Source: Ignavibacteriota bacterium
Lineage (GTDB): Bacteria > Bacteroidota > Ignavibacteria > UBA10030
Assembly: GCA_003142475.1 (NCBI GenBank)
Contig: PLMK01000077.1
Location: forward strand, 1 to 61,544
Direction: 5' to 3'
Length of the DNA stretch: 61,544 nucleotides
The notes beneath the pieces are model-generated. The model saw only the letters and a program-made list of their open reading frames with translations, made no database searches and was not told the DNA's origin. Position numbers and translations under genes: made by a program. Positions within the stretch are counted from its first letter, which is position 1. Each line of letters opens with the position of its first letter. Below, in pieces: positions 1,908 through 23,942 of this stretch.

Positions 1908-1922
1908 GGTCCTCTCGTCCCC

Positions 1923-3518: not shown

Positions 3519-3601
3519 AAGCTGATCTATCCTCTTATGTTAAGATTCTTTAAATAATTTATGCGTTGATCTTCACTTTACACACGCCGGCAATGTGAAC
3601 A

Positions 3602-4906: not shown

Positions 4907-5169
4907 ATAAACATTTTATTTTGTTTGATATGAATCTTTCTTATAAGAATCTTTCGGATAATTTACCTGTCCTTGTTCGGATAGATAATAAGAAACTCCA
5001 ATCGAAAAAGCAATAGATGTAAAGGAGTTTTTTAAGTAAAAGCCCTTTTCCCTTACACCGACATCACATACACATTCTGTGAATCTAGATTTACTTTATT
5101 TACCTCATTTTTATAATTTTGCTCTTTTTACGCGATTATATTAATCTACAGACCTGAATATTCAAAAAA

Positions 5170-6963: not shown

Positions 6964-7013
6964 GGTTCTATTCCTCTTTGCTTGCTTAACCCAATCGCAT
7001 TTCTCAATGCACT

Positions 7014-8546: not shown

Positions 8547-9743
8547 CTATTTATAACCAATAAATGTCAGCGGGAACGCTGCATACCAGGCAGATGCTTT
8601 AACAAGATGTTCCACTGGAATGTGTTCAGTTGCCATATGTGCATAAATTTCATTGCCAGGACCAAAGCCTATGCACGGAATTCCATGTAGACCCATTACT
8701 GCCACGCCATTCGTGCTGAATACCCAACGGTTAACCTTCGGTTTCTCATTAAATAATCCTTCATAAGATTTAACACCGTACGCCAGGAGTGGATGGTTCT
8801 CCGGCAATAGCCATGTTGGATAGTACTTCTTCGTTGGATATGTCAATCCGCGCCAGCTTGGAACAGCATAGTCCAGCACTACGACTTCGGCTTCTGCTTT
8901 CTTCACACTTGGCAATTCTTGAATCTCGCGCATTGCTGATTCCATCGTGTCGGTTGCAGCAAGTCGTCTATCTAAATGAATTGTTGATGAATCCGCCACA
9001 GCACAAAGAGAGGGCGATGTGGAACGAATTTCCGCTATTGTTACAGTCCCTTTGCCAAGAAATGGCTCACCACTTAATCGTTCATTCAACTTTTCGATAT
9101 CTTCAACAATCGGTGCCATTTTGTACACCGCATTCACACCACGTTCCGGTGCGGAGCCGTGACATGAAATTCCTTTCGTGCGTACTTCAATTTCCATACG
9201 ACCACGATGGCCTCGATAGATAGCAAGATTCGTCGGTTCGGCAATAACAACAACTTCAGGTCGTAGTTTATCTTCTTTAATGATGTACTGCCAACAGAGC
9301 CCATCGCAATCTTCTTCTTGCACACTGCCGACAACATAAAGCGTGTAGTCATCTTCCAATCCAAGTTCTTTAATAATCTTTCCACCATAAATAATCGATG
9401 CAAGTGCACCTTTCATATCGCATGCGCCTCGTCCATAGATGATACCATCCTTCTCAGCACCTTTGAATGGATCGATTGTCCAATTTGCCGGATTGCCAAC
9501 ATCAACCGTATCTACATGCGCATCCAATGCAATGATATGTTTTCCATGTCCGATGCGTCCAAGAATATTGCCCATAGGGTCAATTGTGACTTCATCATAT
9601 TCGCATTTTTCCATCTCTTGTTTTATGCGATAGATCACTTGTTCTTCTTGTGAACTCAGCGATCTTATCGCAATCAACTCTCGCAGGAACTGTGCTACCT
9701 GACGCTCGTTCTTTTGTGCGGTTTTCAAGATTTCTTTGAACAT
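8547..9743 (-). CDS. ygeY: YgeY-type M20 family zinc hydrolase
   Basis: This 398-residue M20 peptidase/deacylase-fold enzyme has the metal motifs LDAHVDTVD (about 75-83), GRGACDMKG (about 110-118), the general-base pair in GSVQEEDCDG (about 137-146), AEPTN (about 167) and a late His near YAHMATEHIP. The C-terminal dimerisation insert begins near CHGSAPERG. YgeY (long labelled a selenium-metabolism hydrolase) occurs in urate-utilisation clusters, where it is thought to remove carbamoyl or ureido groups. Here it is the last gene of the 11-gene operon, 11 bases after the PLP-enzyme gene, and length fits YgeY of Escherichia coli (about 400). The exact substrate is not evident; an N-acyl or ureido amino acid such as diureidopropionate is the inference. 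Confidence 0.85.
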   Translation of the reverse strand: MFKEILKTAQKNERQVAQFLRELIAIRSLSSQEEQVIYRIKQEMEKCEYDEVTIDPMGNILGRIGHGKHIIALDAHVDTVDVGNPANWTIDPFKGAEKDGIIYGRGACDMKGALASIIYGGKIIKELGLEDDYTLYVVGSVQEEDCDGLCWQYIIKEDKLRPEVVVIAEPTNLAIYRGHRGRMEIEVRTKGISCHGSAPERGVNAVYKMAPIVEDIEKLNERLSGEPFLGKGTVTIAEIRSTSPSLCAVADSSTIHLDRRLAATDTMESAMREIQELPSVKKAEAEVVVLDYAVPSWRGLTYPTKKYYPTWLLPENHPLLAYGVKSYEGLFNEKPKVNRWVFSTNGVAVMGLHGIPCIGFGPGNEIYAHMATEHIPVEHLVKASAWYAAFPLTFIGYK

Positions 9744-9754
9744 ACATAGTATCC

Positions 9755-11206
9755 TTATCTTGCTAATTCATTAAACTCGGTGATCAACTTGTCAAAATAT
9801 CCGACTTCATCTTCAAACAGACTCCGCCAATATTCCGGCTCCCATTGCTGTCGGAGTTCATCGGACGATTTCCCCTGTTGTTCGACCCACGTGAAATACT
9901 TCAAATTATGAATTGCCTTGCGTTCATAATACGTCAGCTCTTTATAATAATCGATGCTCTGGTGCATCAATGGTCCAGCGTGATCCTTTGCCGATTCAAT
10001 TTGTGAATACGCGCCGCGTTCATGCTTCAATTCCTCCACCCGAGAGCGATACATCTCCGCAGAATCAGTGAAGATGGTCAGTACAACATCCGATACGCCA
10101 TATTCGAAATACTTTGCCGTCTTAATTGCAGAGAGCATATTCGAAATACTAGAAATCCCCAGGAGTTTCAAGCTTTCCACCTGTGCATCCGTTACGCCAA
10201 GCGACTTCAGATATTTCTGTCCTTCCGGCTCGTTGAATAGTCGCAGCACGCGCATGCAATCTTCATCATCCACCGCTGAAACGGTATCCGTATTCCGGAC
10301 ATTATGAACCCACGGCACATGCTTGTCACCAATTCCTTCAATCCGATGTTCACCGAAACCATTCATGAGTAATGTTGGACATTGCAACGCTTCACTTGCG
10401 ACTATCTTAAGATGCGGGAATTGTTTCTTGAGATAATCACCAGCACCGATCGTTCCTGCTGAACCAGTCGCAGATACAAATGCGGCGGGATTTCCATTTT
10501 TAATATGGAGAGCTTTAAATGCCTCTTCTAACGCCGGTCCCGTTACATTATAATGCCAGATTGGATTGCCAAATTCTTCAAATTGATTGAAGATGATGTT
10601 GAGCGGATCCTTTTTTAGTTCCCAGCATTTATCATAAATTTCTTTCACGTTGGATTCTGTTCCCGGTGTTGCAATAACTTCTGCACCAATTTCTTTCAAC
10701 CACGTGAAACGCTCTTTCGACATTCCCTCCGGCAAAATTGCAATAGGAGTACAATCGAGCAACCTGCAATCAAACGCACCACCGCGGCAATAATTTCCTG
10801 TGGACGGCCACACAGCTTTATGTTTTTCGGGATCGAACTCACCGCTTACTAATCGCGGTACCAAACATCCAAACGTCGCACCGACCTTATGTGCTCCCGT
10901 TGGAAAATATTTCCCAATGATGCCGACAATGCGGGCATTAACACATGTAATGGCATTCGGAATCTCAAAATAATTTACGTCACCATACAACCCTGTCTTG
11001 ATATCATTCTTCCATGTAATACGATAGAGATTCAAAGGATTTACATCCCATAATCCAATACCTGCAAGTCTAGATTTGATAGCAGCAGGGATTGTTTCTG
11101 GATTCCTCATCTGCGCAAATGTTGGAATGGTGATCCCTTGCTTCTTGCATCGTGCCGCAGTTTTCTTTATAACTTCATGATTGATGCGCTTAATGATTTT
11201 CGACAT
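9755..11206 (-). CDS. Fold-type-II PLP enzyme of unassigned function (YgeX position)
   Basis: The 483-residue protein is a tryptophan-synthase-beta/cysteine-synthase fold enzyme. The likely PLP lysine is in TGAHKVGATFG (about residues 102-112), a substrate loop is seen in PSTGNYCRGG (about 135), and the cofactor-phosphate loop is SATGSAGTIGAG. It has an extra N-terminal region of about 75 residues and a C-terminal extension of about 90 residues rich in Tyr, Trp and Glu, so it is longer than cysteine synthase (about 310) or diaminopropionate ammonia-lyase (about 400). It occupies the place of ygeX in urate clusters, between ygeW and ygeY, but I cannot align it with the YgeX I know. The ATG at 11206 has a good AAGGAG site. 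Likely a lyase or beta-replacement enzyme on a product of YgeW/YgeY; this is inference. Confidence 0.75.
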   Translation of the reverse strand: MSKIIKRINHEVIKKTAARCKKQGITIPTFAQMRNPETIPAAIKSRLAGIGLWDVNPLNLYRITWKNDIKTGLYGDVNYFEIPNAITCVNARIVGIIGKYFPTGAHKVGATFGCLVPRLVSGEFDPEKHKAVWPSTGNYCRGGAFDCRLLDCTPIAILPEGMSKERFTWLKEIGAEVIATPGTESNVKEIYDKCWELKKDPLNIIFNQFEEFGNPIWHYNVTGPALEEAFKALHIKNGNPAAFVSATGSAGTIGAGDYLKKQFPHLKIVASEALQCPTLLMNGFGEHRIEGIGDKHVPWVHNVRNTDTVSAVDDEDCMRVLRLFNEPEGQKYLKSLGVTDAQVESLKLLGISSISNMLSAIKTAKYFEYGVSDVVLTIFTDSAEMYRSRVEELKHERGAYSQIESAKDHAGPLMHQSIDYYKELTYYERKAIHNLKYFTWVEQQGKSSDELRQQWEPEYWRSLFEDEVGYFDKLITEFNELAR

Positions 11207-11217
11207 ATCTTACTCCT

Positions 11218-12408
11218 TTACACCGATCGTTTCTGATTTCGGTTGACAATCGCTTGCAGCTTTTCTGCAGGATTTTGCATGCGCATCAAGAACATAATCG
11301 CTGCAATAACGAACGGTTTGTAACTCGCTTCTGCATATGTGGCAAGACGGTATTTTTCAAACACATTCTTGGAAACTTCTCCTTCGATACAATTGACACC
11401 AGAAATATCCGCCGGCAGACAATGCATATACAATGCTTCGCTGTTCTTCGTCAGTTTCATTTTCTGTTCATCACATTCCCAGTTTTTAAATTTTGCATTG
11501 TTCGCAAGGCATTCTTTCTCTAACTCCTTCAAGCCAGGTTTATCGTTGTTGCTCAACAATATTGTGCGCCGTTGCATCACATGATATGGTGCCCACGATT
11601 TCGGATATACGATGTCGGCATTTTTAAATGCTTCGTCCATGCTGTTTACCACTTCAAACTTACTGTCGTGCTGCACTGACTGTTTCTTCGCCAATTCCAC
11701 AACTTCAGGGATCAATCCATATCCTTCAGGATATGCGAGCGACACATCCATTCCAAAGCGTGACATTAATCCGATAATACCCTGTGGAACTGAGAGTGGT
11801 TTGCCATAGCTTGGCGAGTATGCCCACGTCATTGCAATTTTTTTACCGCGAAGATTTTCCAACGAACCAAACGTGTTCTTCAATTGCATAAGATCGGCAA
11901 GCGCTTGCGTCGGATGATCAATATCGCATTGCAAGTTGACAATGTTTGGGCGTTGATGCAATATTCCTTGTTCGTATCCTTCCTGAATCGCAGCGCCAAA
12001 CTCCCGCATATACTTGTTTCCCTCGCCGAGAAACATGTCGTCGCGAATGCCGACGATTTCTGCGAGAAAGGAAATCATATTTGCCGTTTCGCGAACGGTT
12101 TCCCCGTGAGCAATCTGCGACTTTTCTTCATCCAGCTCAGAAAGTCCAAGCCCCAGCGCATTTGCCGCAGATGCAAAACTGAACCGTGTGCGTGTAGAAT
12201 TATCGCGGAAGATAGAAATGGCAAGTCCCGTATCAAACGAGCGGAACGAAATTCCTTCTTTGTGCAAATTGTTCATCAACTGCGCCACAGTCAACACTGC
12301 TTTTATTTCATCATTGGTTCGTTCCCACGTCAACAGAAAATCATGATTATAGATATCGATGTGCAGTCGTTTTAAAAGTTCGAGATTATTTTGAATGACA
12401 TTCGACAT
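11218..12408 (-). CDS. ygeW: YgeW-type knotted carbamoyltransferase
   Basis: This enzyme of about 396 residues closely resembles E. coli YgeW along its whole length. It has the carbamoyl-phosphate motif FRDNSTRTRFS (about 67), then KSQIAHGETVRET, NLQCDIDHPTQ, MTWAYSPSYGKPLSVPQG and the HCLPADISGV signature. YgeW belongs to the ornithine/aspartate carbamoyltransferase superfamily; in anaerobic urate pathways it is thought to run backward, phosphorolysing a ureido compound such as 2,3-diureidopropionate to carbamoyl phosphate. I place the start at the ATG at 12408 because GGAG lies 8 bases upstream; an in-frame ATG at 12414 is only two bases from it. It is in the operon between preA and the PLP enzyme. 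No carbamate kinase is seen nearby to use carbamoyl phosphate. Confidence 0.88.
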   Translation of the reverse strand: MSNVIQNNLELLKRLHIDIYNHDFLLTWERTNDEIKAVLTVAQLMNNLHKEGISFRSFDTGLAISIFRDNSTRTRFSFASAANALGLGLSELDEEKSQIAHGETVRETANMISFLAEIVGIRDDMFLGEGNKYMREFGAAIQEGYEQGILHQRPNIVNLQCDIDHPTQALADLMQLKNTFGSLENLRGKKIAMTWAYSPSYGKPLSVPQGIIGLMSRFGMDVSLAYPEGYGLIPEVVELAKKQSVQHDSKFEVVNSMDEAFKNADIVYPKSWAPYHVMQRRTILLSNNDKPGLKELEKECLANNAKFKNWECDEQKMKLTKNSEALYMHCLPADISGVNCIEGEVSKNVFEKYRLATYAEASYKPFVIAAIMFLMRMQNPAEKLQAIVNRNQKRSV

Positions 12409-12432
12409 CTTCATTTCTCCATCAAGCTTAGT

Positions 12433-13665
12433 TTATATCCATTCCATAATTTCAATGCAATCGTCAACCGGACAGACGAATTTACATAATCCGCAACCAA
12501 CGCATCGTTCCCAATCAATATGTGCAATACGATTTTCCAATTGATCAATCGCATTATGCCCTCCGTCGCGACATGCCACATAACAAAGATCACAACCTAT
12601 GCACAAATTCTCGTGAATATGGTTGCGCATACGTTTTCTTGGCAGTTCATTGTGCGATACAATGTTTGGCAGTGCCTTTCCAACAATTTCTTTGGGTGAT
12701 GAAAATTTCATCTCATCGAGATAGTGAGACATTCCACTGTTCAAATCATCAATGACACGGAAGCCGTAATGCATTACGACCGTGCAAAATTCAACAACAC
12801 CTGCACCAACCGACATAAATTCCACTGCATCGCTCCAGGTACTTGCGCCGCCTGTGCCCATTATCGGAATATCAACGTTGCGCGCAATCTCGGCTATCGT
12901 GCGGAGAGTGATCGGCTTTATTGCAGGGCCGGTCATTCCGCTGTACGTAGACTTGCCATCGAGACTTGGAGTGGGAGCAAACGTCTTAATATCAATTCCC
13001 ATTAATGCTTGAATGGAATTCGATGCTGTCAACGCATCACAACCGCTACGCTTCACTGCTCTTGCAACTTCAACAATATCTGTTACGTGCGGAGTTATTT
13101 TGATCGAAATCGGAACTCGCTTCGATGCCTCTTTCACCCAACGCGCAGTCAATTCTGTTGCACTCAAACTTTGCGCCAGCATCTTGCCAGGATCTTCGCC
13201 AATATTTCCCTGTGGGCATGAAAAACTGCATTCGATCAGATCGACACCGGCTTTTTCCAAACGTTCAACGAGATGCTGCCAATCTTCTTTTCTGCCTGCC
13301 ATGATACTTGCTGCAACCATTTTCGCTGGAAATTCTTTCTTCAGCATTCGAACATTGTATTCTACTTTGTCGATGTGATGTTCTGAGATAAGATCAATAT
13401 TTCCCATTCCAAACAATTTTCTTCCTTCATGCTCAAATGCGGACATCATCGGGTAGCAAAGATCGACTTTCGTTCCTTCCACTGATGTTGTTTTGAGAAT
13501 TGCTCCAGCCCATCCCATTTGAAATCCGCGTCGTACCATTTCAAGATCATCGGTTGACGGTGCTGCGGCAAGAATGAACGGATTTTCGAACTGAATACCG
13601 AGAAAATTGTATGATAGATCGCGTGCTGGGTAGATTTCGATCTCTTTGAATTTCTTATATTCCAC
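12433..13665 (-). CDS. preA: PreA-type dihydropyrimidine dehydrogenase-like subunit
   Basis: The protein is 410 residues if it starts at the GTG at 13665, which has AAGAGG six bases upstream and overlaps the preT stop by 11 bases. An ATG at 13761 would add 32 unlikely residues. It has an FMN TIM barrel of the dihydroorotate-dehydrogenase family (about 1-310) and two 4Fe-4S ferredoxin motifs, CIGCDLCYVAC and CVGCGLCKFVC, near the C-terminus. PreA with PreT reduces uracil or thymine with NADH in E. coli. Here the context is purine-type degradation, so the pair may act on a purine-derived ring. The loop after SCPQG shows EDPGKMLAQS and no Cys where mammalian dihydropyrimidine dehydrogenase has its catalytic Cys. 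Substrate is therefore open. Confidence 0.85.
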   Translation of the reverse strand: MEYKKFKEIEIYPARDLSYNFLGIQFENPFILAAAPSTDDLEMVRRGFQMGWAGAILKTTSVEGTKVDLCYPMMSAFEHEGRKLFGMGNIDLISEHHIDKVEYNVRMLKKEFPAKMVAASIMAGRKEDWQHLVERLEKAGVDLIECSFSCPQGNIGEDPGKMLAQSLSATELTARWVKEASKRVPISIKITPHVTDIVEVARAVKRSGCDALTASNSIQALMGIDIKTFAPTPSLDGKSTYSGMTGPAIKPITLRTIAEIARNVDIPIMGTGGASTWSDAVEFMSVGAGVVEFCTVVMHYGFRVIDDLNSGMSHYLDEMKFSSPKEIVGKALPNIVSHNELPRKRMRNHIHENLCIGCDLCYVACRDGGHNAIDQLENRIAHIDWERCVGCGLCKFVCPVDDCIEIMEWI

Positions 13666-14938
13666 TGGCTGCCTCTTGCTTTCCTGATAAGAATTCGTGA
13701 ATCGCTTGTGCGGCATGTTTCCCCTGCGCAACAGACTGCACAATCGTTCCTTCACCGGCAATCATATCGCCGCCAGCAAATATTTTATCAACAGATGTCC
13801 GGAAATTTTCATCAACTTTGATATATCCTTTTTCTCGCTCGACTCCTTCAAGCCAATCCGCCGCTATTGATTGGCCAATAGCAATAATAATATTATTGGC
13901 ATCAATGATGAATTCAGATCCTTTCACTTCAACAGGTATTGGACGACCAGACTTATCCTTCTGTTTTCTTAACTTCGTATGTCGGCACTTCACACCTTCC
14001 ACTTTTTTCTTGCCAACAACTGCAACCGGATTTATGAGAAAACGAATCTCTACTCCTTGTTTGCGCGCCTCTTCCAACTCAGCTTTCCAGACACGCATTT
14101 CCTTTTCACTCCGGCGATAAACAAGAATTACACTCTCCGCACCGAGCCGTTTTGCGGTTGCAGCCGCATCCAATGACACATTACCGCCGCCAACAATGAC
14201 GACACGCTTACCGAGTTTCATTCTTTTGGGATTTGCCTTCGCTGATTCAAGAAATTGCAAAACCGGCAACACCCCTTTCATCTTTTCGCCGGGAATTCCA
14301 ATGGGACGATCCTTTCCAAGTCCTACCGCAAGAAATGTTGCATTATATAATTTCTGGATTTGTTCGAATGCTTTTCCATCTACCGTTTTCTTTTTCAGAG
14401 AGAAATATTTTGACAAGAACTTCGTATCCGATTCCAACTCTTTATCTGCAAGGCGAAAAGCTGGAATGCTATTACGCGGCACTCCACCAGGTTTGCCTTT
14501 ATCAAACACATCCACTAAGTACCCATATTTCGATAACTCAAATGCACAACCAAGTCCTGACGGTCCGGCGCCAACGACAGCAACTTTCTTATTCAGTGTT
14601 GGAAATGGTTTTGTTTTCGAAAATCCTTTCTTTACTTCTTCCTGCGTTGCAAAGAAATGCAGCTCACGAATCTGAATTGGCGAATCCTGCTTACCGCGCG
14701 TGCAAACGGATTGACAAAATATTTCCTCCGGACAAATTTTACCGCAGACATTGGCTAGGGCGTTAGAAGTTTTCGTGATCTCTGCTGCTCCAATAATATT
14801 GCCGTTACGAATCATTGAGATGAATTTGGGAATTTTGATATGCGTCGGACACGCCTGCTCACAGGGTGCATCGAAACATTGCAAGCAACGCTCAGCTTCG
14901 ACTCGAGCTTGTTGTGCCGTCAAGGTTAGATTCATCAT
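13655..14938 (-). CDS. preT: PreT-type NAD(P)H-oxidising flavoprotein subunit
   Basis: This 427-residue protein has the GltD/PreT layout. An N-terminal helical domain carries cysteine clusters for two 4Fe-4S centres (CLQCFDAPCEQACP near 20 and CGKICPEEIFCQSVC near 70). The FAD-binding motif is VVGAGPSGLG (about 122) and the NAD(P)H-binding motif is VIVGGGNVSLDAAA (about 248). A final FAD segment contains IFAGGDMIAG. It should pass electrons from NAD(P)H to PreA, with which it overlaps. Length matches E. coli PreT (about 412). GGAG lies five bases before the ATG at 14938. In urate clusters the large YgfK protein carries related domains, so PreT plus PreA could be a split counterpart; this is inference. 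Confidence 0.88.
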   Translation of the reverse strand: MMNLTLTAQQARVEAERCLQCFDAPCEQACPTHIKIPKFISMIRNGNIIGAAEITKTSNALANVCGKICPEEIFCQSVCTRGKQDSPIQIRELHFFATQEEVKKGFSKTKPFPTLNKKVAVVGAGPSGLGCAFELSKYGYLVDVFDKGKPGGVPRNSIPAFRLADKELESDTKFLSKYFSLKKKTVDGKAFEQIQKLYNATFLAVGLGKDRPIGIPGEKMKGVLPVLQFLESAKANPKRMKLGKRVVIVGGGNVSLDAAATAKRLGAESVILVYRRSEKEMRVWKAELEEARKQGVEIRFLINPVAVVGKKKVEGVKCRHTKLRKQKDKSGRPIPVEVKGSEFIIDANNIIIAIGQSIAADWLEGVEREKGYIKVDENFRTSVDKIFAGGDMIAGEGTIVQSVAQGKHAAQAIHEFLSGKQEAASGI

Positions 14939-14959
14939 CTTTTCTCCGCAATACCTACA

Positions 14960-16900
14960 CTAGTTCCATACGCGTACTGGCAGTACAACCATCGACAGTC
15001 CTTGGAATTGAAGCCGATTCTGGATCGCATACGCTGTTTCACTATGCAGAATTCGTTGATACCATTTCTGTTTTTGGAAGACGAGCTTCGCTGCAAAAAA
15101 GACCGATTGCTTAAACTCACGTGAAAGCTCCATGCAAATTTTCTCTGCTTCTTCCACCGCTTCCGTTCCAACAGACATTCGTGCTGTCGCCGGAATCCCA
15201 AGGTTTGTTGCAAGCTTCACATAGTGCTCCAATTCATGCTTCGTGTTTTCCTCAAGGCGCTCGACTTCATCTGCCCCCTTAAAGTTACCAGTATCCAAAA
15301 CTGCCACTGATACAAATACCATCTGCTTGAAGTACCCGGGAAATTGCTTCACAATATTAAGAAGCGAGTGAATGCCAAGTCCGTTGTAGCTTTCAACAAG
15401 TAAGATTGCTGTCGGACGTCTGCTATCAAGTTTCATCGCTGGTTGAACTGCGGAATCTTCAGCAGGAAGTCCTTCCAGAATATCCGAGAGTGAGCGAAGT
15501 TTTTTATTCACAAGGCGATAATGCCGCCGGATAATAACACATAGCAGGATTAACGCTGATGTGACAACGACTGTCATCCATGCTCCTTCCCTGAATTTCT
15601 CAATTACAACGATCGTTAAAATGGAAAGACAGAGAACGAGTCCAGTCAGGTGAACAGGGAGTGACTTTTTCCATTCCGGATGTGTTTTCCGTTCTGTAAT
15701 CCAAAACTTTACCATGCCGATTTCGGTGAGCGAGAATGTGAGAAATACGTTAATAGAGTACATCGTCACAAGAGCATCAATATTTCCACCCGTATAAAAC
15801 AATGTTGCGATTGACGCAGCACCGATAAGCATGATCCCATAGTGCATTGTTAATCGATCTGATAATGACGCAAAACGATGCGGCAGCCAGCGGTCGTTCG
15901 CCATATTTGCCATTACACGCGGACCATCGATAAATCCCGTTTGTGCAGCAACGAATAAAAGTGCCGCTTCTGAAGCGAGGACGAGCACAACAAACCAAGG
16001 ACCAAAATTAAGTTTCTCCACCATCACTGCATTCAGCGTTTTCCCAGGTTGTTCACTCACACCAAGCAAAAGATAAATCATTAGAATTGAGCCGGCTGTA
16101 ATCGCGAGTGACGTTGCCATGTACGCCATCGTTCGTTTGCCTGTCGGAATGCGCGGCTCACGCATAATTTGAATTCCATTCGACACCGCTTCTATACCGG
16201 TGTATGTTCCTGCACCGCGTGAATATGCACGCGCTAAAATCACAAACATCGCCCAGAAACCGAGACTGCTATAACTCGTATGCAGATTCTGTCCAACTTG
16301 CGATGCAATAGCGGGAGCTTCATGAAAATGTTGAATAATTGCGCCGCCAAAAAGAATGAGATGTGCAGCAACAAATGTGAGAAAAATTGGCACCATGAAT
16401 TCAATAGATTCTTTAATTCCACGAAGATTTAAAATAACGAGAAGGATGATGGCAGTTGCTTCGACCGGTACCATCCACTTTTGCCACGAGTATGGCAAGA
16501 AGCTAAAAATCTGTGCAGCTCCAGATGCAATCGAAACTGTAATCGTCAAAATATAATCTACCAGCAACGCGCTGCCGGAAACAACTCCAAATGGTGCACC
16601 GAGTAGTTTTGTTGCAACAACATACCCGCCGCCGCCAGAAGGAAAATGTTCAATAATGCGGCTGTAAGCATAGGATATTATAAAGACCGTCAATGCAGTA
16701 GCAACTGCAAGAATAACAGCCAGTTCTGTGTGTCCAGTGAGTGAACGAAACGCTTCATCGGGTCCATACGCTGAGGAACTTAATCCATCGGCTCCAAGCC
16801 CCACCCACGCTAAAAAAGCAATGAGTGAAATTTTATGGAAGAGCTTCGGGTCATGTATATCACGAGGTTTCCCAATGAGTAATTCTTTAATGCGTTCCAA
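14960..16900 (-). CDS. APC-superfamily permease with long soluble C-terminus
   Basis: This 646-residue membrane protein has about 12 transmembrane helices in the first 470 residues. It carries the APC-type opening GLGADGLSSSAYGPDEAFR (about 37-55) and a glycine-rich segment near the second helix (SGGGGYVVATKLLG). The last 150-170 residues are soluble, with alternating strands and helices (for example PTAILLVESYNGLG, MVFVSVAVLDTG) like a universal-stress-type domain. It lies inside the operon, 21 bases before preT and just after xdhC, so it is the likely importer of the operon's substrate. Most purine importers are NCS1 or NCS2 proteins; an amino-acid-type APC carrier here is unusual. It could instead import or export an amino acid made or used by the pathway. 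Confidence 0.8.
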   Translation of the reverse strand: MERIKELLIGKPRDIHDPKLFHKISLIAFLAWVGLGADGLSSSAYGPDEAFRSLTGHTELAVILAVATALTVFIISYAYSRIIEHFPSGGGGYVVATKLLGAPFGVVSGSALLVDYILTITVSIASGAAQIFSFLPYSWQKWMVPVEATAIILLVILNLRGIKESIEFMVPIFLTFVAAHLILFGGAIIQHFHEAPAIASQVGQNLHTSYSSLGFWAMFVILARAYSRGAGTYTGIEAVSNGIQIMREPRIPTGKRTMAYMATSLAITAGSILMIYLLLGVSEQPGKTLNAVMVEKLNFGPWFVVLVLASEAALLFVAAQTGFIDGPRVMANMANDRWLPHRFASLSDRLTMHYGIMLIGAASIATLFYTGGNIDALVTMYSINVFLTFSLTEIGMVKFWITERKTHPEWKKSLPVHLTGLVLCLSILTIVVIEKFREGAWMTVVVTSALILLCVIIRRHYRLVNKKLRSLSDILEGLPAEDSAVQPAMKLDSRRPTAILLVESYNGLGIHSLLNIVKQFPGYFKQMVFVSVAVLDTGNFKGADEVERLEENTKHELEHYVKLATNLGIPATARMSVGTEAVEEAEKICMELSREFKQSVFFAAKLVFQKQKWYQRILHSETAYAIQNRLQFQGLSMVVLPVRVWN

Positions 16901-16903
16901 TTA

Positions 16904-17380
16904 CTATCCTTTCAGTGGTGAAACATTGTTATTTTGTATTGCATCAACTATTTGCTGGTATCCGCTGCATCGGCATAAGTTACCGGAGATAGCGGTTCGA
17001 ATTTCTTCTTCAGTCGGATTGGAATTATGATCGAGCAAATCTTTTGCGCTCATCAGCATACCAGGAGTACAGAATCCACAATGCACTGCATCGTGATTAA
17101 GGAATGACTCCTGCAGCGGATGAAGTTTGTTCCCAATCGCAAGCTCCTCGACAGTCACTATTTCTTGTCCATCAATCTGTGGAGCGAGTACAAGACACGA
17201 ATTAACAGCTTTACCGTTCATCAGGACAGTGCATGCACCGCATTCACCAACTTCACAGCCACACTTTGTTCCAGTAAGGCCTAGCTCTTCGCGCAATAAT
17301 GAAAGAAGTGTGAGATTTGGTTTGATCTCAAGTTCATAATGTTTATGATTGACCGATGTATGAATGGTTACTTTCTTCAT
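16904..17380 (-). CDS. xdhC: Xanthine-dehydrogenase-type 2Fe-2S subunit
   Basis: The protein is 158 residues from the ATG at 17380, which I prefer to an upstream in-frame start at 17419 because homologs begin at MKKVTIH and the chosen start leaves a 7-base gap after the FAD subunit. It has the plant-type 2Fe-2S motif CGCEVGECGACTVLMNG with its last Cys in VNSC, then the helical 2Fe-2S domain with CGFCTPGM and LCRCSGYQ. It relays electrons from the molybdenum site to FAD in a hydroxylase of the xanthine dehydrogenase family. All eight cluster cysteines are visible. It is the third of three consecutive subunit genes. Confidence 0.92.
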   Translation of the reverse strand: MKKVTIHTSVNHKHYELEIKPNLTLLSLLREELGLTGTKCGCEVGECGACTVLMNGKAVNSCLVLAPQIDGQEIVTVEELAIGNKLHPLQESFLNHDAVHCGFCTPGMLMSAKDLLDHNSNPTEEEIRTAISGNLCRCSGYQQIVDAIQNNNVSPLKG

Positions 17381-17387
17381 ATCATTC

Positions 17388-18242
17388 TCATTGACAAGTT
17401 TCCAATGCTCTTCGAACAAGGACAGCTATCACGGGTTCTTTATATTCAGTCGACCAGCGTCTTCCAGTAAAAGAGATCATCGCTTCTGAAACTCTTTTTC
17501 CTGTTTCAATAAATAATTCCTTTGACGGTTTTTGTCCGACCAATATTTTTTCCGCTTCAGTCATTCGTTGCCATTTTGGGAATGCTGCACCAGGAACAAT
17601 TCGCACTTCTTGGATAAGTCCACTGTCACTCTTTCGTAAGATTGCTGCAACGCTCAAGCGAGAAATCGCCAGAGCATTTCTTCTTCCAAGTTTGAGGAAC
17701 ATGCTTTTCATCGAATCGAGTAACTTAGGAAATCGAATCTCCATGAGAAGTTCATTCTTTATCGCGATTGTCTGGTAGGGCTTGATGAAGAAATCGATAA
17801 TGGGAACAATACGTTCTCCATTTACCGATAGTAACTTCACAGTTGCGTCAAGTGCCATCAGCGGCGGGACAGTATCTGCACATGCAGCAGCGTTCATAAT
17901 ATTTCCACCGATGGTACCGCGATTGCGGATTTGCGGGGAACCAATAACATGTGCAGCTATATGTAACAATCGCGCATGCTTTTTAATGCTTGAAGATGAA
18001 CCAAGTTCAGTATGTGTTGTAAGTGGTTTGATAATAATTTCGGATTCAGTTTCGGTAATTCCCTTCAACTCGTTCAACCGATTTATGTCGATAATTGCTC
18101 TTGGAGGTTTGACTGATGACTTGCGCAGTTCTATCAACACATCTGTACCGCCAGCAAGAATTTGTGCATCATTTTCAAACTCTTTCAATAATGCGCAAGT
18201 TTCTACAACATTCTTCGGAGAAAAATATTCAAACTGCTTCAT
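17388..18242 (-). CDS. xdhB: Xanthine-dehydrogenase-type FAD-binding subunit
   Basis: The 284-residue protein has the PCMH/VAO-type FAD fold with ILAGGTDVLIELR (about 34-46) and IGSPQIRNRGTIGGNI (about 101-116), both diagnostic for the FAD subunit of molybdenum hydroxylases. The C-terminal domain of CO-dehydrogenase flavoprotein type follows. It passes electrons from the iron-sulfur subunit to NAD+ or another acceptor. Its ATG overlaps the stop of the large subunit in an ATGA arrangement, so translation is coupled. Length fits the family (about 280-300). Confidence 0.92.
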   Translation of the reverse strand: MKQFEYFSPKNVVETCALLKEFENDAQILAGGTDVLIELRKSSVKPPRAIIDINRLNELKGITETESEIIIKPLTTHTELGSSSSIKKHARLLHIAAHVIGSPQIRNRGTIGGNIMNAAACADTVPPLMALDATVKLLSVNGERIVPIIDFFIKPYQTIAIKNELLMEIRFPKLLDSMKSMFLKLGRRNALAISRLSVAAILRKSDSGLIQEVRIVPGAAFPKWQRMTEAEKILVGQKPSKELFIETGKRVSEAMISFTGRRWSTEYKEPVIAVLVRRALETCQ

Positions 18243-20593
18243 AATTTATTCCCCCGAGTCTTGCATGAATCTGTCTCCTCTATTTCCTTCTGTTCCAAAC
18301 CTCGTTTGCCAGTGCGAGTCAGTTTATGACCGAGCAGCACACGTTCAAGGTTCGCTGGAATTTCATAGATCCGTTTTCCAGTTGCATTGTAAATCGCATT
18401 TACAATCGCTGGTGCAGCAAGTTCATTGGTCGGTTCACCGACCGATTTTGCTCCGAACGGACCAGTCGGATCTTCATTCTCAACAATAATTGCCTTAATA
18501 CGCGGCACATCCATTGACGTTGGAATTAAATATTCGTCAAAGTTGGCCTGCTTTGGAATGCCTTCTTCAATTTCAAACTCTTCCAGCAAACCATAACCAA
18601 TCCCCATTGCCACACCACCAAAAATCTGTGCTTCGACCATTCCTTTATTGATCGCCTTACCAACATCGTGCACCGAAACAAAATCGAGAACATCAACTTT
18701 GCCTGTTTCGATATCTACCTCGACTTCTGCAACATTGGCACCATATACAAATGTGAAATATGCTTCACCTTGTCCCTGCCTTTCATCCCAAGAGGTCTTT
18801 GGTGAATGATGCCAGCCATGGCTGACCATCGGTTTACCTTTATTGAAGCAGGCCGTTGCGAGTTCGTTGAACGATGCCAGCGGTTTTTTCGTTTTTATAT
18901 TGATGAGATAGTTGTCGAGAAGATCAAGATCGCTCACTGCATCGCCCGTCATTTCAGCACCGACTTCGAGTAGCGTGATCCGTACTTTTTCAGCTGCATT
19001 CTTCGCTGCTGAACCGCCCATAATTGTTCCACGCGATGCGACTGTTGCACCGGAATCCGCAACACGACTTGTATTCGTATTCAGAAAGTGAATCCGGTCC
19101 ATCGAAATACCAAGCACCTCGGCAGTAATTTGCGACATTTGCGTTTGTGCGCCCTGTCCCATATCAGTAATGCCGGAAGAAACGATCACACTGCCATCCG
19201 TTTGCACAGAGACAATTGTTTCTGCTGCATCAGTTCCTTCTGCGCCAAGTGAGACCCCGCGATAACTGCACGCCAGTCCAATGCCATGTTTTTTCTCGTC
19301 AGATTTCGCCTCTCGATTTCTTTTCCATTTTTTTTCGAAATCGCTTGCCGCCGCTGCCTTCGTCAATACTTCTTTCAGACTAACATTATGCGTCAGTTCT
19401 TGTCCCGTCGCTGTCACCGCGCCGGTTTCGAACCCATTCTTCATGCGAATCTCGAGCGGATTCATTCCAACTTTTTCCGCCAAATCATCCATCATCGATT
19501 CAATGGCAAAATTGACTTGCGGCGATCCGAATCCGCGCATCGCGCCGGTGTAGTTATTGTTGGTGTATGCAGCATAAACATCTGTCTTGACATTTTCACA
19601 ATAGTAGGGTCCGGTTGCCTGCACTACCGAACGCCAAGTAACGAACGGACTCATCGATGCGTACGCACCACCATCTGCGATACACTTGATTTCCATCGCA
19701 GTGATGGAGCCATCTTTCTTTGCACCCCATTTATAATAGAGAACATACGGGTGACGTTTGTAACTTTCGAGCATCGACTCTTCGCGCGTGTCAACCATTT
19801 TGACCGGCCTGCCGGTTTTCATCGCAAGTAACGCAGCCCGGCAACTGATCAATGTCATAGCTTCATCCTTGCCGCCGAATGAACCGCCAAGTGTTGACTG
19901 CACAATCTGCACTTGTGCAAGATCAAGATTCAACATTGATGCAACTGAGCGGCGAGTTGAAAAAAGATTTTGTACACAACCCGTGATTTTAATTCCGTCT
20001 TGTTCGGATGGTTCGGCAAGCACGGCTTCCGGTTCGATGTACGAATGCTCGATGAATTGAGTTTTGAATTTCCGTTCGATAATAAAATCAGCTTCAGCAA
20101 AACCTTTCGTGATATCACCTTTTTGAACGTGATGATGCACGAATTCATTTTTGTCGTCATGAAGAACCGGCGCATCCGGTTTCATTGCTTCTTCTGGATC
20201 GGACACGACGGGAAGAGGTTCGTATTCGACTTCGATAAGTGAAATCGCTTGTTCGGCAATTTCCTTCGATACAGCGGCAACGAGTGCTACACCGTCTCCA
20301 AGATAGCGGACACGATCTTCCGCAAGAATGGCTTGATTCTTTACAACAACGCCGAATACTTTTGCACCAGGGATATCTTTTGCAGTCAGCACTGTCTCAA
20401 CGCCTGTGAGTTTTTCTGCTTTCGAAATATTGATGCAGATAATTTTAGCATGCGGATATTTCGAGCGAAGCACTTTACCAATCAACTGGTGCGATACATT
20501 GTAATCGTCGGCGTACTTCGCTTTGCCTGTGACCTTGCCCCACGCATCCACACGCCGTTCAGACTTGCCGATTATTTTCAATTCTTTGTTCAT
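18239..20593 (-). CDS. xdhA: Xanthine-dehydrogenase-type molybdopterin subunit
   Basis: This is the large molybdenum hydroxylase subunit, 784 residues from the ATG at 20593; a GTG at 20617 would overlap ssnA by 22 bases. The N-terminal a/b-hammerhead domain opens with KVTGKAKYADDY. Molybdopterin-contact segments are GGSFGGKDEAMT (about 246), AMRGFGSPQVNF (about 358) and SRGTIMGGSAAKN. The catalytic Glu is expected in GAKSVGEPTNELAAP near residue 735. The enzyme hydroxylates purines or related rings with water as the oxygen source. The AMRGFG/GEP pattern supports a xanthine-dehydrogenase-like rather than CO-dehydrogenase activity, but the substrate (hypoxanthine, xanthine or another heterocycle) cannot be read from sequence. 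It sits between ssnA and xdhB; no dedicated cofactor-insertion chaperone gene is in the operon. Confidence 0.92.
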   Translation of the reverse strand: MNKELKIIGKSERRVDAWGKVTGKAKYADDYNVSHQLIGKVLRSKYPHAKIICINISKAEKLTGVETVLTAKDIPGAKVFGVVVKNQAILAEDRVRYLGDGVALVAAVSKEIAEQAISLIEVEYEPLPVVSDPEEAMKPDAPVLHDDKNEFVHHHVQKGDITKGFAEADFIIERKFKTQFIEHSYIEPEAVLAEPSEQDGIKITGCVQNLFSTRRSVASMLNLDLAQVQIVQSTLGGSFGGKDEAMTLISCRAALLAMKTGRPVKMVDTREESMLESYKRHPYVLYYKWGAKKDGSITAMEIKCIADGGAYASMSPFVTWRSVVQATGPYYCENVKTDVYAAYTNNNYTGAMRGFGSPQVNFAIESMMDDLAEKVGMNPLEIRMKNGFETGAVTATGQELTHNVSLKEVLTKAAAASDFEKKWKRNREAKSDEKKHGIGLACSYRGVSLGAEGTDAAETIVSVQTDGSVIVSSGITDMGQGAQTQMSQITAEVLGISMDRIHFLNTNTSRVADSGATVASRGTIMGGSAAKNAAEKVRITLLEVGAEMTGDAVSDLDLLDNYLINIKTKKPLASFNELATACFNKGKPMVSHGWHHSPKTSWDERQGQGEAYFTFVYGANVAEVEVDIETGKVDVLDFVSVHDVGKAINKGMVEAQIFGGVAMGIGYGLLEEFEIEEGIPKQANFDEYLIPTSMDVPRIKAIIVENEDPTGPFGAKSVGEPTNELAAPAIVNAIYNATGKRIYEIPANLERVLLGHKLTRTGKRGLEQKEIEETDSCKTRGNKL

Positions 20594-20595
20594 TT

Positions 20596-21894
20596 TTACT
20601 TGTTCATCTTTTTCCACAACTTTGCAGCAACTTTCTGTGCTTTTTCCATTACTGCATATTCATCAATTTCTACGAGCTGGTGATTCCACACAATCCAATG
20701 ACCATCGGTCATCACATGCTGAACCATGGTAGAATTTATTCCAAATAAAAAATGACTGAGAATATTTTGATGGATAATTGGTGTCGGAGCATTGTAATCG
20801 AGCACAATAAGATCCGCCGGTGAATTCTTTACAATAGTTCCAAACGAACGACCGAAAAATTGCGAGATAAGTTTCTGTCCGTTCTGTAGCATCGCCGGCA
20901 GTCGAGAAAACTCTACCCGATGATCAGATTCAGCATTGCGGAAATAGCCGAACTTTGCCTCATCGAACATATCTGCCGGAAATCCATCCGTGCCAAGGGC
21001 AGAATGTTCTCCATACCAATTCAGTGGCACATAACCGACTGCATTGTTCATATTCGAACGCGGATTGTGGACCATCCACGCACCGGATTTTTCGACTCTG
21101 GCAAATTGTTTTTGATTGATATGAACGCCATGGGCGAAGATAGATTTCTTGCGGAGAAGGCCAAGTGCGGCCAATCGGCTAATGATATCGGTGTTATAGT
21201 TTTCTATCGAATCCATCACATCAGCTCTATCTTCGGCAACATGAATGTGGACACCGCAATCATACATCGATGCCAGTTCTCCAATTTTGCGCAGCGAATC
21301 ATTGCACAGCGTGAACGATGCATGTGCACCAATTGTGCCGCGGAAACGAGCATTGTTTGCATTTTCTATGACAAAGCGTTCATTCTCTACTAATCCAAGA
21401 TCGCGTTTTTTCATTCCACCTCGATCGGTGGTTTCGTAGCAAAGGATTCCGCGTAAACCAACCTTCGCTATTCCTGCTTTTATCAAGTCAAGCGAGCCGC
21501 GAACATGATTCGGTGATGCGTGATGATCAACGAGTGTTGTCGTTCCAAATTTGACAGCTTCGATTGCACCAACGAGTGCACTATAATAGATGGATTCCTC
21601 ATCCAGCGCTTCATCCAACTTCCACCATACTTCTTGAAGAATTTCTATAAAGTTTCTTGGCGCAGGTTTCGGCGAGGGCATTCCGCGGGAGAGTGCAGAA
21701 TAAAGATGCGTGTGGGAATTCACAAACCCGGGAAGAATAATTTTTCCAGAAAGATCAATAACTTCATCACTCTTCTTTGGTCGTAGACTCTGCCCGCAAT
21801 CAGCAATGGTACCATCAATGATGCGGATATCGGCTTCTTCGATCTTTGGTGGATCGAGATGAATAATCCTAGCATTCTTTAGGAGGAAATCCAT
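20596..21894 (-). CDS. ssnA: SsnA-type metal-dependent aminohydrolase
   Basis: The 432-residue amidohydrolase is of the ATZ/TRZ/guanine-deaminase group. Metal ligands are visible as NSHTHLYSALSRG (about 59-71), GVHIHVAEDRAD (about 215), FAHGVH (about 255) and the Asp in ALGTDGFPADMFDE (about 308-321). Such enzymes hydrolytically remove an amino group from a ring. SsnA is a recurrent member of ygeW-ygfK-xdhD clusters, where its exact reaction is debated; guanine or another aminopurine is a reasonable substrate. It starts 8 bases after the threonine-synthase-like stop and ends two bases before xdhA. Confidence 0.88.
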   Translation of the reverse strand: MDFLLKNARIIHLDPPKIEEADIRIIDGTIADCGQSLRPKKSDEVIDLSGKIILPGFVNSHTHLYSALSRGMPSPKPAPRNFIEILQEVWWKLDEALDEESIYYSALVGAIEAVKFGTTTLVDHHASPNHVRGSLDLIKAGIAKVGLRGILCYETTDRGGMKKRDLGLVENERFVIENANNARFRGTIGAHASFTLCNDSLRKIGELASMYDCGVHIHVAEDRADVMDSIENYNTDIISRLAALGLLRKKSIFAHGVHINQKQFARVEKSGAWMVHNPRSNMNNAVGYVPLNWYGEHSALGTDGFPADMFDEAKFGYFRNAESDHRVEFSRLPAMLQNGQKLISQFFGRSFGTIVKNSPADLIVLDYNAPTPIIHQNILSHFLFGINSTMVQHVMTDGHWIVWNHQLVEIDEYAVMEKAQKVAAKLWKKMNK

Positions 21895-21902
21895 ATTATT
21901 TT

Positions 21903-23150
21903 TCAGATGAGAGAAATGTTTTTAAGATTTTGTTCTAATGTCGATAATTTCGGTTCGATGTCGATTGTCTGCCCAACTGCTTTTTTTGCAGAAGCAATAT
22001 CTTTCAATCCATTGCCGGTTATAACTGCGACTGCAGATTCATCCGGTTTGACGATGCCCTTTGTAATTGCTTTCTTCAATCCCGCAACACCTGCAACACC
22101 TGCCGGTTCGCCAAATACTCCTCCGAGTCGTGATGTCAGTCGCATAGCTTCTAAAATTTCTTCATCTGATACTGCAATCATTGTTCCATTCGATTTTGTA
22201 ATTTGTTTAATCGCGCGGCGCCAATTACGCGGCGTTCCGACAGCGATGCTATCCGCGATTGTGTCGGGTTGTGATGGTACCAAATCTTTCCCCGAAAAGA
22301 AAGCATTCATCAACGGCTTGGAACCTTCTGCCTGCACACCAAGCAAACGCGGCACACGATTAATGAATCCCAGCCGTTTCATTTCTTGTAATCCTTTTCC
22401 AATACCGCTAATCGTACAACCATCTCCCACCGACACAACCACCCAGTCTGGAATCGCAGAACCAAACTGCTCGCCAATTTCCAATCCTGCTGTTTTTTTC
22501 CCCTCTACCAAAAAAGGATTCGTGCCGCTGTTGCGATTATACCAGCCGAACATTTCGCATGCTTCGCGGCAAAGATCGAATGCTTGTTCATACGTCCCCT
22601 GTACTCGGATCACTGTTGCACCAAAGATGAGCAATTGTGTGACTTTTGGTTCCGGTGCACGCTGTGGTACAAAGATAAAACTTCGTAGTCCAACTGCCGC
22701 CGACATTCCCGCCAGCGACGATGCTGCATTGCCGGTTGAAGCACATGCAATTATGTTAAATCCAAACTCCTGCGCTTTCATTACACCGATTGAGCTTGCC
22801 CGATCCTTAAATGAATTCGTTGGGTTGCGTCCGTCGTCTTTCAGAAATAATTTTGAGATACCGATGGTTTGTGCAAGACGCGGAACATCGTACACTGGAG
22901 TCCAACCGACATGTAAATTGGGTAATGAAATGTCGGGTGAAACAGGAAGCAATTCGCGATAACGCCAATGATTAAATTGTCGATTGGGTATAACGGCCTG
23001 TAAATTGGGAATTGAGTCATAATCATATTGGACATCGAGAATGCCCTCAACACCGCAATCCGGACAGGTGAAAACATTGCCATACGCCACGATTCTGCCA
23101 CATACTAGGCAACGCAGGTTAGTAACAAATTCAGGTTTTCGTACTTCCAT
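21903..23150 (-). CDS. Threonine-synthase-like PLP enzyme with N-terminal zinc ribbon
   Basis: This 415-residue fold-type-II PLP enzyme has an N-terminal zinc ribbon (LRCLVCGR then FTCPDCGVEG, about 13-36). The PLP lysine is in NPTNSFKDRASS (about 110-121), a substrate loop is in ACASTGNAASSLAG (about 135), and a phosphate-type loop is seen in VSVGDGCTISGIGKG (about 238). This is the architecture of threonine synthase. It is the first gene of the purine-type operon, so it may be a biosynthetic enzyme carried along, or a repurposed lyase for an amino acid produced by ring breakdown. AGAGGA lies 4-5 bases before the ATG at 23150. Confidence 0.82.
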   Translation of the reverse strand: MEVRKPEFVTNLRCLVCGRIVAYGNVFTCPDCGVEGILDVQYDYDSIPNLQAVIPNRQFNHWRYRELLPVSPDISLPNLHVGWTPVYDVPRLAQTIGISKLFLKDDGRNPTNSFKDRASSIGVMKAQEFGFNIIACASTGNAASSLAGMSAAVGLRSFIFVPQRAPEPKVTQLLIFGATVIRVQGTYEQAFDLCREACEMFGWYNRNSGTNPFLVEGKKTAGLEIGEQFGSAIPDWVVVSVGDGCTISGIGKGLQEMKRLGFINRVPRLLGVQAEGSKPLMNAFFSGKDLVPSQPDTIADSIAVGTPRNWRRAIKQITKSNGTMIAVSDEEILEAMRLTSRLGGVFGEPAGVAGVAGLKKAITKGIVKPDESAVAVITGNGLKDIASAKKAVGQTIDIEPKLSTLEQNLKNISLI

Positions 23151-23260
23151 TAATTCCTCTAATGTTCAAGTAGCACTCTATCTTCCGGCTTATATGCTAA
23201 TATAGTGCGCTTTCTAATGGAAATCGAGGAGAAGTTTTTGGAAGTATATCGATCGGTGGT

Positions 23261-23942
23261 TTAAACTTTTGATGTATTATACTTAGTCTCGAACTTCTCG
23301 TTAGCCTCCATAACTGCTTTGGCAATCTCGAGATTACGAGATACGCGCCTGCCTTTATGAGATTTGTCGTTGTTCTCGAGAAAATCGTTATAAACTTTAA
23401 TCGCGAGAATGGCCAACTGGGCAGAGTTGCTCGGTACTACTCCGCCAGGGAAGCACTGAGCATGCTTCCGCAAGAACAATGCAGCAGATCGTACTGCTGA
23501 ATGCTCGTCGCGGTCGCGCTTGGTGGGGTAACTAAATTTCCAGCGCCGTATGCGCTGAGTAATTAGATTCTTGTTTTCGTCACCTGCTACAATCCCGGCT
23601 GCGGGAAATATCCGGCAATCGTAACTGCGGCAAGTTAGTGGGCGGTACTCTATAGATAGAACATTTGTCATCGATCAGCATAGGGCAACGACCATTCTTA
23701 TCGTAGCCCAATAGTACATTACCCTTTGGTAGAAAGGGTGCTGGGAATAGGAGCTCTTTAGGTATTCGAGTAAGAGTTTGGGTCTCTTCGGGTTTGATAT
23801 GGATGAAGTATGTTGACTTGCAACACGCGTTGCACTCACCGCAAGGCACATCAATTCCGTTTTCATTTATTTGCGCGTCCCGTATACGACGAAGCCAGAA
23901 GAGAATCTTCCAGCAGGTAGATTTTGCTTTTGGGTCAAATCC
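23261..23942 (-). pseudogene. Frameshifted YkgJ-type cysteine-cluster protein gene
   Basis: Two overlapping minus-strand frames together make one YkgJ-like protein. The first frame (open from 23942 to 23580) has CWKILFWLRRIRDAQ, the cluster VPCGECNACCKS, and CPMLIDDKCSIYR. The second (23671-23261) continues with RPLTCRSYDCRIFPAAG and a helical tail. The natural join CSIYR..RPLTCRSYDCR requires a one-base frameshift near 23645-23655. The first frame has no ATG upstream of the cysteine motif before its stop at 23943-23945. A 35-codon frame starting at an ATG at 23974 (beginning MSNDTRLIGV) may be the lost N-terminus, which would need a second frameshift. YkgJ proteins are thought to bind zinc or an iron-sulfur cluster; function is unclear. 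Sequencing error is an alternative to true decay. Confidence 0.7.

Follow-up and report, generated by a model that had tools for sequence, protein, structure and literature searches.

The reductive urate pathway, known mainly from gut bacteria and new to the literature, was published in 2025 and leads from urate through 2,8-dioxopurine, diureidopropionate and diaminopropionate to pyruvate (Li et al. 2025, PMC12507026). In the main text of that paper, UacX of C. difficile is a PreA/PydA-type reductase, SsnA is the marker of the pathway, with carriers in Pseudomonadota, Bacillota, Chloroflexota, Actinomycetota, Spirochaetota and Elusimicrobiota, and YgeX is assigned in the survey by PF00291. The commentary by Percudani (PMC12990295) lists the order of ureido cleavage and the stereochemistry as open. 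Barba et al. 2013 (PMC4016543) predicted a PreA-like 'dehydrogenase X1' together with hyuA, ygeW, ygeY, ssnA, xdhABC and yqeA, and in Haft and Self 2008 (PMC2276186) the E. coli cluster appears in a table together with selenium-linked genes. Here we describe an eleven-gene operon in a 61,544-nucleotide stretch of DNA from an Ignavibacteriota bacterium (contig PLMK01000077.1), the whole of which is referred to as the window. The operon is probably a variant of the reductive urate pathway rather than a pathway for a new substrate, and it departs from the known pathway at its end, where YgeX is absent and two other families of pyridoxal phosphate (PLP) proteins track the pathway.

The operon (8547-23150) consists of 11 ORFs (open reading frames), all intact on inspection and on the minus strand, read in the order thrCx, ssnA, xdhA, xdhB, xdhC, KimA-like, preT, preA, ygeW, PLPx, ygeY; thrCx and PLPx are working names for its threonine-synthase-like and CysK-like proteins. 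Like the urate clusters of E. coli (K-12, NC_000913.3) and C. difficile, it encodes a molybdenum enzyme of the xanthine dehydrogenase (XDH) type, a putative flavin mononucleotide (FMN) reductase, SsnA, YgeW and YgeY, whereas HyuA and carbamate kinase are encoded elsewhere in the window genome (G000; 3.58 Mb, 81 contigs). It differs from them in its three-subunit XdhABC, in PreT and PreA instead of YgfK or UacX, which lacks flavin adenine dinucleotide (FAD), in PLPx and thrCx instead of YgeX, and in a KimA-like gene inside the operon, with no carrier of the UacT type found. XdhABC and PreTA occupy the places of XdhD-YgfM and YgfK of E. coli. The neighbourhood of 'dehydrogenase X1' is also similar, with a PreA-like dehydrogenase beside the genes listed above, but its description in section 5 of PMC4016543 names no PLP enzyme, whereas the window operon has two.

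SsnA passed PRK07203 (478.8 bits, cut-off 444) and fell just short of TIGR03314 (454.2, cut-off 455.5), YgeW exceeded two NCBIfam cut-offs (660.5 against 453 and 625 against 500 bits), and YgeY scored about 581-584 bits with TIGR03526 (cut-off about 321-321.5). In the pathway that we propose, urate would be made by the ordinary xanthine dehydrogenase encoded elsewhere in the genome and reduced by the operon XdhABC to 2,8-dioxopurine, the ring of which PreT-PreA would then reduce and SsnA open. HyuA, encoded on another contig, would open the hydantoin to give 2,3-diureidopropionate, and YgeW would split off one of the two ureido groups to give carbamoyl phosphate, from which carbamate kinase, also encoded on another contig, could make ATP. 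YgeY would remove the remaining ureido group, and thrCx, most likely a diaminopropionate lyase, and PLPx, catalysing a further C3 step, would together do the work of E. coli YgeX. The gene content, synteny, co-inheritance and residues are the basis of this interpretation, and it is from them that we infer the reactions. An earlier note on this stretch had described the eleven-gene minus-strand operon with its short gaps and overlaps, in the gene order confirmed here, and had interpreted it as related to the urate cluster, but found in an unrelated lineage and with a number of exchanged components; this much is supported. Its further suggestion, that substrate and end product may therefore be new, finds no support, the front-end exchanges being of a published kind (UacX in PMC12507026 and X1 in PMC4016543). 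As far as can be told from sequence, the operon appears ordinary in its substrate and new in its parts.

The co-occurrence of these genes was analysed in 98 genomes of the order, 48 of which were classed as SsnA-positive (at least 325 bits; the next genome scored 187 bits) and the other 50 as SsnA-negative. The curated SsnA cut-off (455.5 bits) was passed by 31 genomes, with the window just short of it at 453.8. PLPx was found in 46 of the 48 SsnA-positive genomes and in none of the 50 SsnA-negative ones, and the same counts (46/48 and 0/50) were obtained for thrCx and, at its curated cut-off, for YgeY. YgeX, by contrast, was present in 3/48 and 6/50 genomes, respectively, and had no match in the window genome. 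It exceeded its cut-off in eight genomes, G325 (265.8 bits, cut-off 274) also being counted, and the next match scored only 53 bits, so there is no divergent YgeX in between. PLPx and YgeX showed no association across the order (3 shared genomes, p 0.49). As PLPx and thrCx also belong to PF00291, the published YgeX survey would have been unable to tell the three apart.

The gap in PLPx scores was clean (more than 400 bits against 71), the protein of G345 being in pieces. For thrCx, 39 genomes were clear (at least 617 bits) and G309 has a fragment at 71%, but the copies of G014, G344, G345, G354, G355 and G366 (40-45% identity, 253-308 bits) abut ordinary threonine synthases (next 238 bits, 38%), so that the line among the weak copies was drawn by hand and excludes a second G366 copy (40%, 229 bits). 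On its contig, each of the six weak copies is next to ygeY, and five are next to ssnA as well; their inclusion is therefore not independent of the pattern. Seven genera contain both SsnA-positive and SsnA-negative genomes and, within them, the PLPx/thrCx pair follows SsnA, except in G374 and G363, which lack thrCx. A further genome of the window genus, G321, encodes PLPx at C186:1472-2920.

All eleven genes are found together in the sister species G078. A search with PLPx of named genomes returned relatives in at least 569 of the 585 stretches listed. The 80 best loci were retained; this sample is biased towards near relatives, and its contigs are often short. The ten genes other than that for the permease were found around eight of these 80 loci, five with a close YgeW (L044-L046, L048 and L050) and three with a YgeW of 39-40% identity (L067, L074 and L079). 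This recurrence, together with the complete set of G078, indicates that the operon is not a chance grouping; in the relatives examined, the genes are not scattered. Partners were counted as best BLAST matches (E 1e-8 or better), the weaker of which may include paralogues. Of the 80 loci, 60 have a match to ygeW (at 60% identity or more in 52 of them and at 28-43% in 8), 49 to an XDH molybdenum subunit, whatever its type, 44 to ssnA, 43 to ygeY, 39 to preA/ygfK, 33 to thrCx, 18 to hyuA and 2 to ygeX; for the 32 loci of at least 18 kb, the counts were 29 (ygeW), 27 (xdh), 22 (preA/ygfK), 22 (ygeY), 21 (ssnA), 21 (thrCx) and 10 (hyuA). The locus titles, mostly those of metagenome bins, include Ignavibacteriae, Bacteroidota, Chlorobi, Acidobacteria (Holophagaceae and others), Verrucomicrobia, KSB1, Elusimicrobia, Cloacimonadota and more. 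In the acidobacterial loci L091, L093 and L099, relatives of E. coli UacT and YgfK lie beside PLPx, and in L053, L067, L070, L071, L074 and L079 a carbamoyltransferase of 39-43% identity takes the place of the close YgeW. In a phylum-wide sample, YgeW passed its cut-off in 6/296 genomes, all in the order of the window, a count that may be too low. A locus from Terriglobia (L065:9974-16331) has PLPx, an aspartate-carbamoyltransferase-like protein, an ornithine-carbamoyltransferase/YgeW-like protein, carbamate kinase and thrCx in a row, with xdh and ssnA absent within 21 kb; this context, which might reveal what PLPx does, hints at the ureido/C3 end, and the locus could be a half-pathway acting on ureido amino acids.

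XdhA, XdhB, XdhC and PreT have the expected domains but fall below the cut-offs of all NCBIfam models listed. The XdhA proteins of the operon type have residues of their own (GGKD, TWRS and GVSLG), whereas the ordinary XDH of the window genome (G000:C7) has GGKE, FGISFT and TAAS. In a tree of 54 molybdenum subunits, the types of which had been labelled beforehand by their motifs, the 13 rows of the operon type, the 21 of a second cluster type, the 9 of an XdhD-like type and the 9 of ordinary XDH each formed one group with 100% support, under a long-branch warning that includes both E. coli proteins. In two other genomes of the order, G093 and G243, XdhABC and PreTA are replaced by a fused protein with an N-terminal 2Fe-2S part and an XdhD-like layout and by a YgfK-like protein matching residues 7-406 (the FMN part) of YgfK. 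The flanking genes thrCx, ssnA and ygeW are as in the window operon. In G243 they are contiguous with PLPx and ygeY; the G093 contig ends at ygeW, its PLPx and ygeY being on another contig. The exchange of one module for the other among the same neighbours argues that both carry out the same two reductions. It could instead be supposed that the operon degrades another purine or N-heterocycle, which XdhABC would hydroxylate and the later ureido intermediates of which would differ. The low family scores and distinctive residues of XdhA fit such a function, and the electron donor and direction of a molybdenum enzyme cannot be read from its sequence, but the strong family matches of YgeW, YgeY and SsnA and the module exchange within the order make it unlikely.

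The PreA protein passed PRK08318 (430.5 bits, cut-off 335), and thus the NCBIfam model of dihydropyrimidine dehydrogenase PreA, but it differs from PreTA dihydropyrimidine dehydrogenases at the uracil-binding residue. Asn668 of the pig enzyme, which binds O4 of 5-fluorouracil (PMC10970046), corresponds to a serine in 15/15 PreA sequences of the window type and 15/15 of the second cluster type, and was kept in all three of the pyrimidine type (E. coli PreA and two from pyrimidine-type clusters of the order); Cys671 was kept in all 33. A divergent row (L094) was set aside from this alignment, in which YgfK-type rows align less surely. As uracil O4 corresponds to the 6-oxo position of urate, which is absent in 2,8-dioxopurine, we infer that the PreA active site would agree with dioxopurine as the substrate.

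The structural model predicted for thrCx (pLDDT, a per-residue confidence score, 90.7) has the fold of threonine synthase (2c2b: Z 48.0, root-mean-square deviation (rmsd) 2.5, 402 residues aligned). It differs from threonine synthases in the arginine of the motif xxRxEGxKT, which we take to bind the substrate phosphate: this residue is L, C or T in 29/29 thrCx and arginine in the seven other threonine-synthase-like copies sampled, which were picked by hand from the order and include one from the window genome. PLPx reached none of eight NCBIfam cut-offs (best model CysK, 107 bits, cut-off 351) and shares with CysK the fold, with extra N- and C-terminal parts. Its predicted model (pLDDT 87.9) matches cyanoalanine and cysteine synthases (3vc3: Z 33.7, rmsd 2.6, 310 residues aligned), and Lys107 is invariant in the 37 relatives aligned (65-90% identical). 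The O-ureidoserine synthase 3x44, which acts on a close ureido analogue, is among the similarly scoring matches (Z 31.9, rmsd 2.8, 308 aligned), a likeness of the model that is suggestive only. Both proteins share PLP fold type II and a proposed place in the pathway with YgeX. Profile alignments place Asp120 of YgeX, described as potentially catalytic in PMC4000059, opposite Thr139 in thrCx and Thr136 in PLPx (for PLPx, 49 columns at 66% probability); this Asp is missing in one of the seven YgeX rows compared. No YgeX model was among the eight NCBIfam families for PLPx or among the 25 shown of 41 for thrCx, and no diaminopropionate ammonia-lyase was among the best 50 structure matches of either protein, which excludes nothing.

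Several observations weigh against a urate pathway or against the roles given to the two PLP proteins. The co-occurrence p-values (5e-26) ignore shared ancestry, and in three Elusimicrobia loci (L114, L116 and L119) and on the short contig L080, PLPx is accompanied by none of the partners counted. XdhA is nearly equally similar to E. coli XdhA (30% identity) and XdhD (31%), the fused XdhD-like protein scores 373 bits with the operon XdhA and 224 with E. coli XdhD, and Glu606 of XdhD, proposed to orient urate, falls in an insertion in the alignment and so allows no conclusion on urate. No purine permease of the NCS2 family was found in the window genome, and one was found in one of five genomes searched, so the uptake route is unaccounted for. 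The thrCx protein passes TIGR00260, a threonine synthase model (230.7 bits, cut-off 167.1), although it misses PRK08197 (286.5 bits, cut-off 303). Finally, in L091 and L093, PLPx lies beside a YgeX-family protein (over PRK08206, under TIGR03528 and TIGR01747).

The match to TIGR00260 and the cysteine-synthase/cystathionine-synthase fold of PLPx would also suit a role of the two proteins outside catabolism, in which the released C3 unit or ammonia is used for cysteine, threonine or another amino acid. Their confinement to SsnA-positive genomes of the order and their position inside the operon, the loss from thrCx of an arginine kept in all seven other copies, and the lack of a YgeX match in the window genome make such a role quite improbable. 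A pyrimidine-degradation operon of PreTA and hydrolases is highly improbable, since the PreA protein does pass the dihydropyrimidine dehydrogenase model but G093 and G120 of the order have separate pyrimidine-type sets (L162 and L163), with PreTA carrying Asn668 and HyuA beside aminotransferase-like and ureidopropionase-like ORFs (named by eye), and no match to xdh, ssnA or ygeW in these 20-kb stretches.

Within a reductive urate pathway, PLPx was considered as a plain replacement of YgeX, a possibility weakened by L091 and L093; the presence of both proteins there makes a single function common to the two families improbable. We therefore favour thrCx as the putative diaminopropionate lyase and PLPx as the enzyme of an additional step with the same C3 amino acids. 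A further proposal, less likely than not, is that PLPx represents a novel type of PLP enzyme that carries out a reaction of its own on ureido- or diamino-alanine, such as direct urea elimination from albizziin or replacement of its side group, in which case the end chemistry of the pathway would be different, and its product possibly another one, in Ignavibacteria, Acidobacteriota, Verrucomicrobiota and other environmental phyla. Searches of open-licence PMC papers, most of which were judged from their listing, showed none that treats the two families in the reductive urate pathway. The terms Bacteroidota, Acidobacteri-, Ignavibacteri- and threonine synthase are absent from the main text of PMC12507026, and Verrucomicrobi- from the portion of its text that was searched, so our data point to the pathway in environmental phyla that the discovery paper, to this extent, does not name (Ignavibacteria, Acidobacteriota and Verrucomicrobiota). 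The thrCx and PLPx families come with a clear prediction for its last step and, as candidate replacements of the non-stereospecific YgeX, could help to answer both the question of the order of ureido cleavage and that of the stereochemistry.

The lack of HyuA is only apparent. A HyuA of 42% identity (TIGR02033: 576 bits, cut-off 393) is encoded at G000:C26:169986-171353 and, in G078, hyuA lies head-to-head with thrCx, upstream of the operon; the ORFs on its far side (by eye, sdh genes and an acyl-CoA ligase) look alike in both genomes. The 209-bp hyuA-thrCx intergenic region of G078 has its counterparts at two separate sites of the window genome. Its thrCx-proximal part, about 91 bp long, matches the sequence upstream of the window thrCx (score 115), and its hyuA-proximal part, of about 41 bp, the sequence upstream of hyuA on C26 (score 52), against a maximum of 38 in 200 shuffles. 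Judged by these alignments, the breakpoint is inside the shared intergenic region, and hyuA and the operon would once have been a divergent pair, parted by rearrangement or, less likely, by an assembly error. Genome G228 has hyuA, an ordinary XDH and the operon up to ygeW in succession, with PLPx and ygeY on another contig. Carbamate kinase is encoded at C43:133353, between the ornithine and aspartate carbamoyltransferase genes. The cluster of these three genes (L166:8013-12252, in G000:C43; named in G000) is shared with G078 (L216:3588-8224) and also holds a protein of about 450 aa with a sub-threshold cobW match only.

The permease looks like a potassium transporter, to judge from its match to KimA (PDB 6s3k, E 7.3e-59) and the conservation of all eight KimA residues D36, Y43, D117, T121, S125, T230, E233 and Y377 (aligned, with positions counted by hand). 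According to PMC6994465, these residues line the path of K+ and H+, although not all are essential, as T230A and D117 variants still grew. With all eight kept, an APC permease acting as a purine carrier is not favoured. Among the clusters seen, the gene is present only in those of G000 and G078 (0/80 named loci), and is therefore probably an add-on rather than the substrate carrier.

Features of the operon and its upstream region (window coordinates), with the evidence for each assignment.
Feature	Position	Strand	Evidence
thrCx, threonine-synthase-like fold-II PLP protein, first gene; proposed diaminopropionate lyase	21903..23150	-	fold, family score, residue, co-occurrence
ssnA aminohydrolase	20596..21894	-	NCBIfam PRK07203; 40% identity to E. 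coli SsnA
xdhA-like molybdenum subunit; proposed urate 6-dehydroxylase	18239..20617	-	MoCoBD domains; apart from ordinary xanthine dehydrogenases
xdhB-like FAD subunit	17388..18242	-	FAD_binding_5 + CO_deh_flav_C
xdhC-like 2Fe-2S subunit	16904..17419	-	Fer2_2 + Fer2
KimA-like K+/H+ symporter	14960..16900	-	PDB KimA 6s3k match; 8 residues conserved
preT-like NAD(P)H/FAD/4Fe-4S subunit	13655..14938	-	Fer4_20 + Pyr_redox_2
preA-like FMN subunit, start uncertain; proposed 2,8-dioxopurine reductase	12433..13761	-	PRK08318; Ser at Asn668 position
ygeW carbamoyltransferase	11218..12414	-	NCBIfam, two cut-offs passed; 66% identity to E. coli YgeW
PLPx, CysK-like fold-II PLP protein, 483 aa, no named family	9755..11206	-	no NCBIfam cut-off reached; CysK/cyanoalanine-synthase fold
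ygeY M20 hydrolase, last gene	8547..9743	-	TIGR03526; 55% identity to E. coli YgeY
Upstream region common with the hyuA-thrCx intergenic region of G078, approximate extent	23153..23242	-	local alignment score 115

The gaps between adjacent genes measure 3-21 bp and the overlaps 4-107 bp, the 107-bp overlap of preT and preA depending on an uncertain TTG start of preA. A scan of 23000-23700 gave two promoter-like sites (1.3 expected) and three terminator-like sites (0.7 expected) and was not used as evidence. In G078, a 197-aa ORF (L033:9147-9737; by eye of the phage-type ORF6N-like kind) lies between preT and preA, which is not the case in the window. The YgeY of G363 (G363:C157:7410-8579) was read with one in-frame TGA, which could reflect selenocysteine, a frameshift or decay. 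The PLPx proteins of the three Elusimicrobia loci L114, L116 and L119 are 66-67% identical, and the neighbours that these loci share are an uncharacterised ORF and one that by eye resembles a CCA transferase; no urate gene lies close by. Immediately downstream of the operon, at 1023-8384 of the window, there are genes of the type IV pilus/secretion type (named by eye), and similar ORFs are found downstream in G078.

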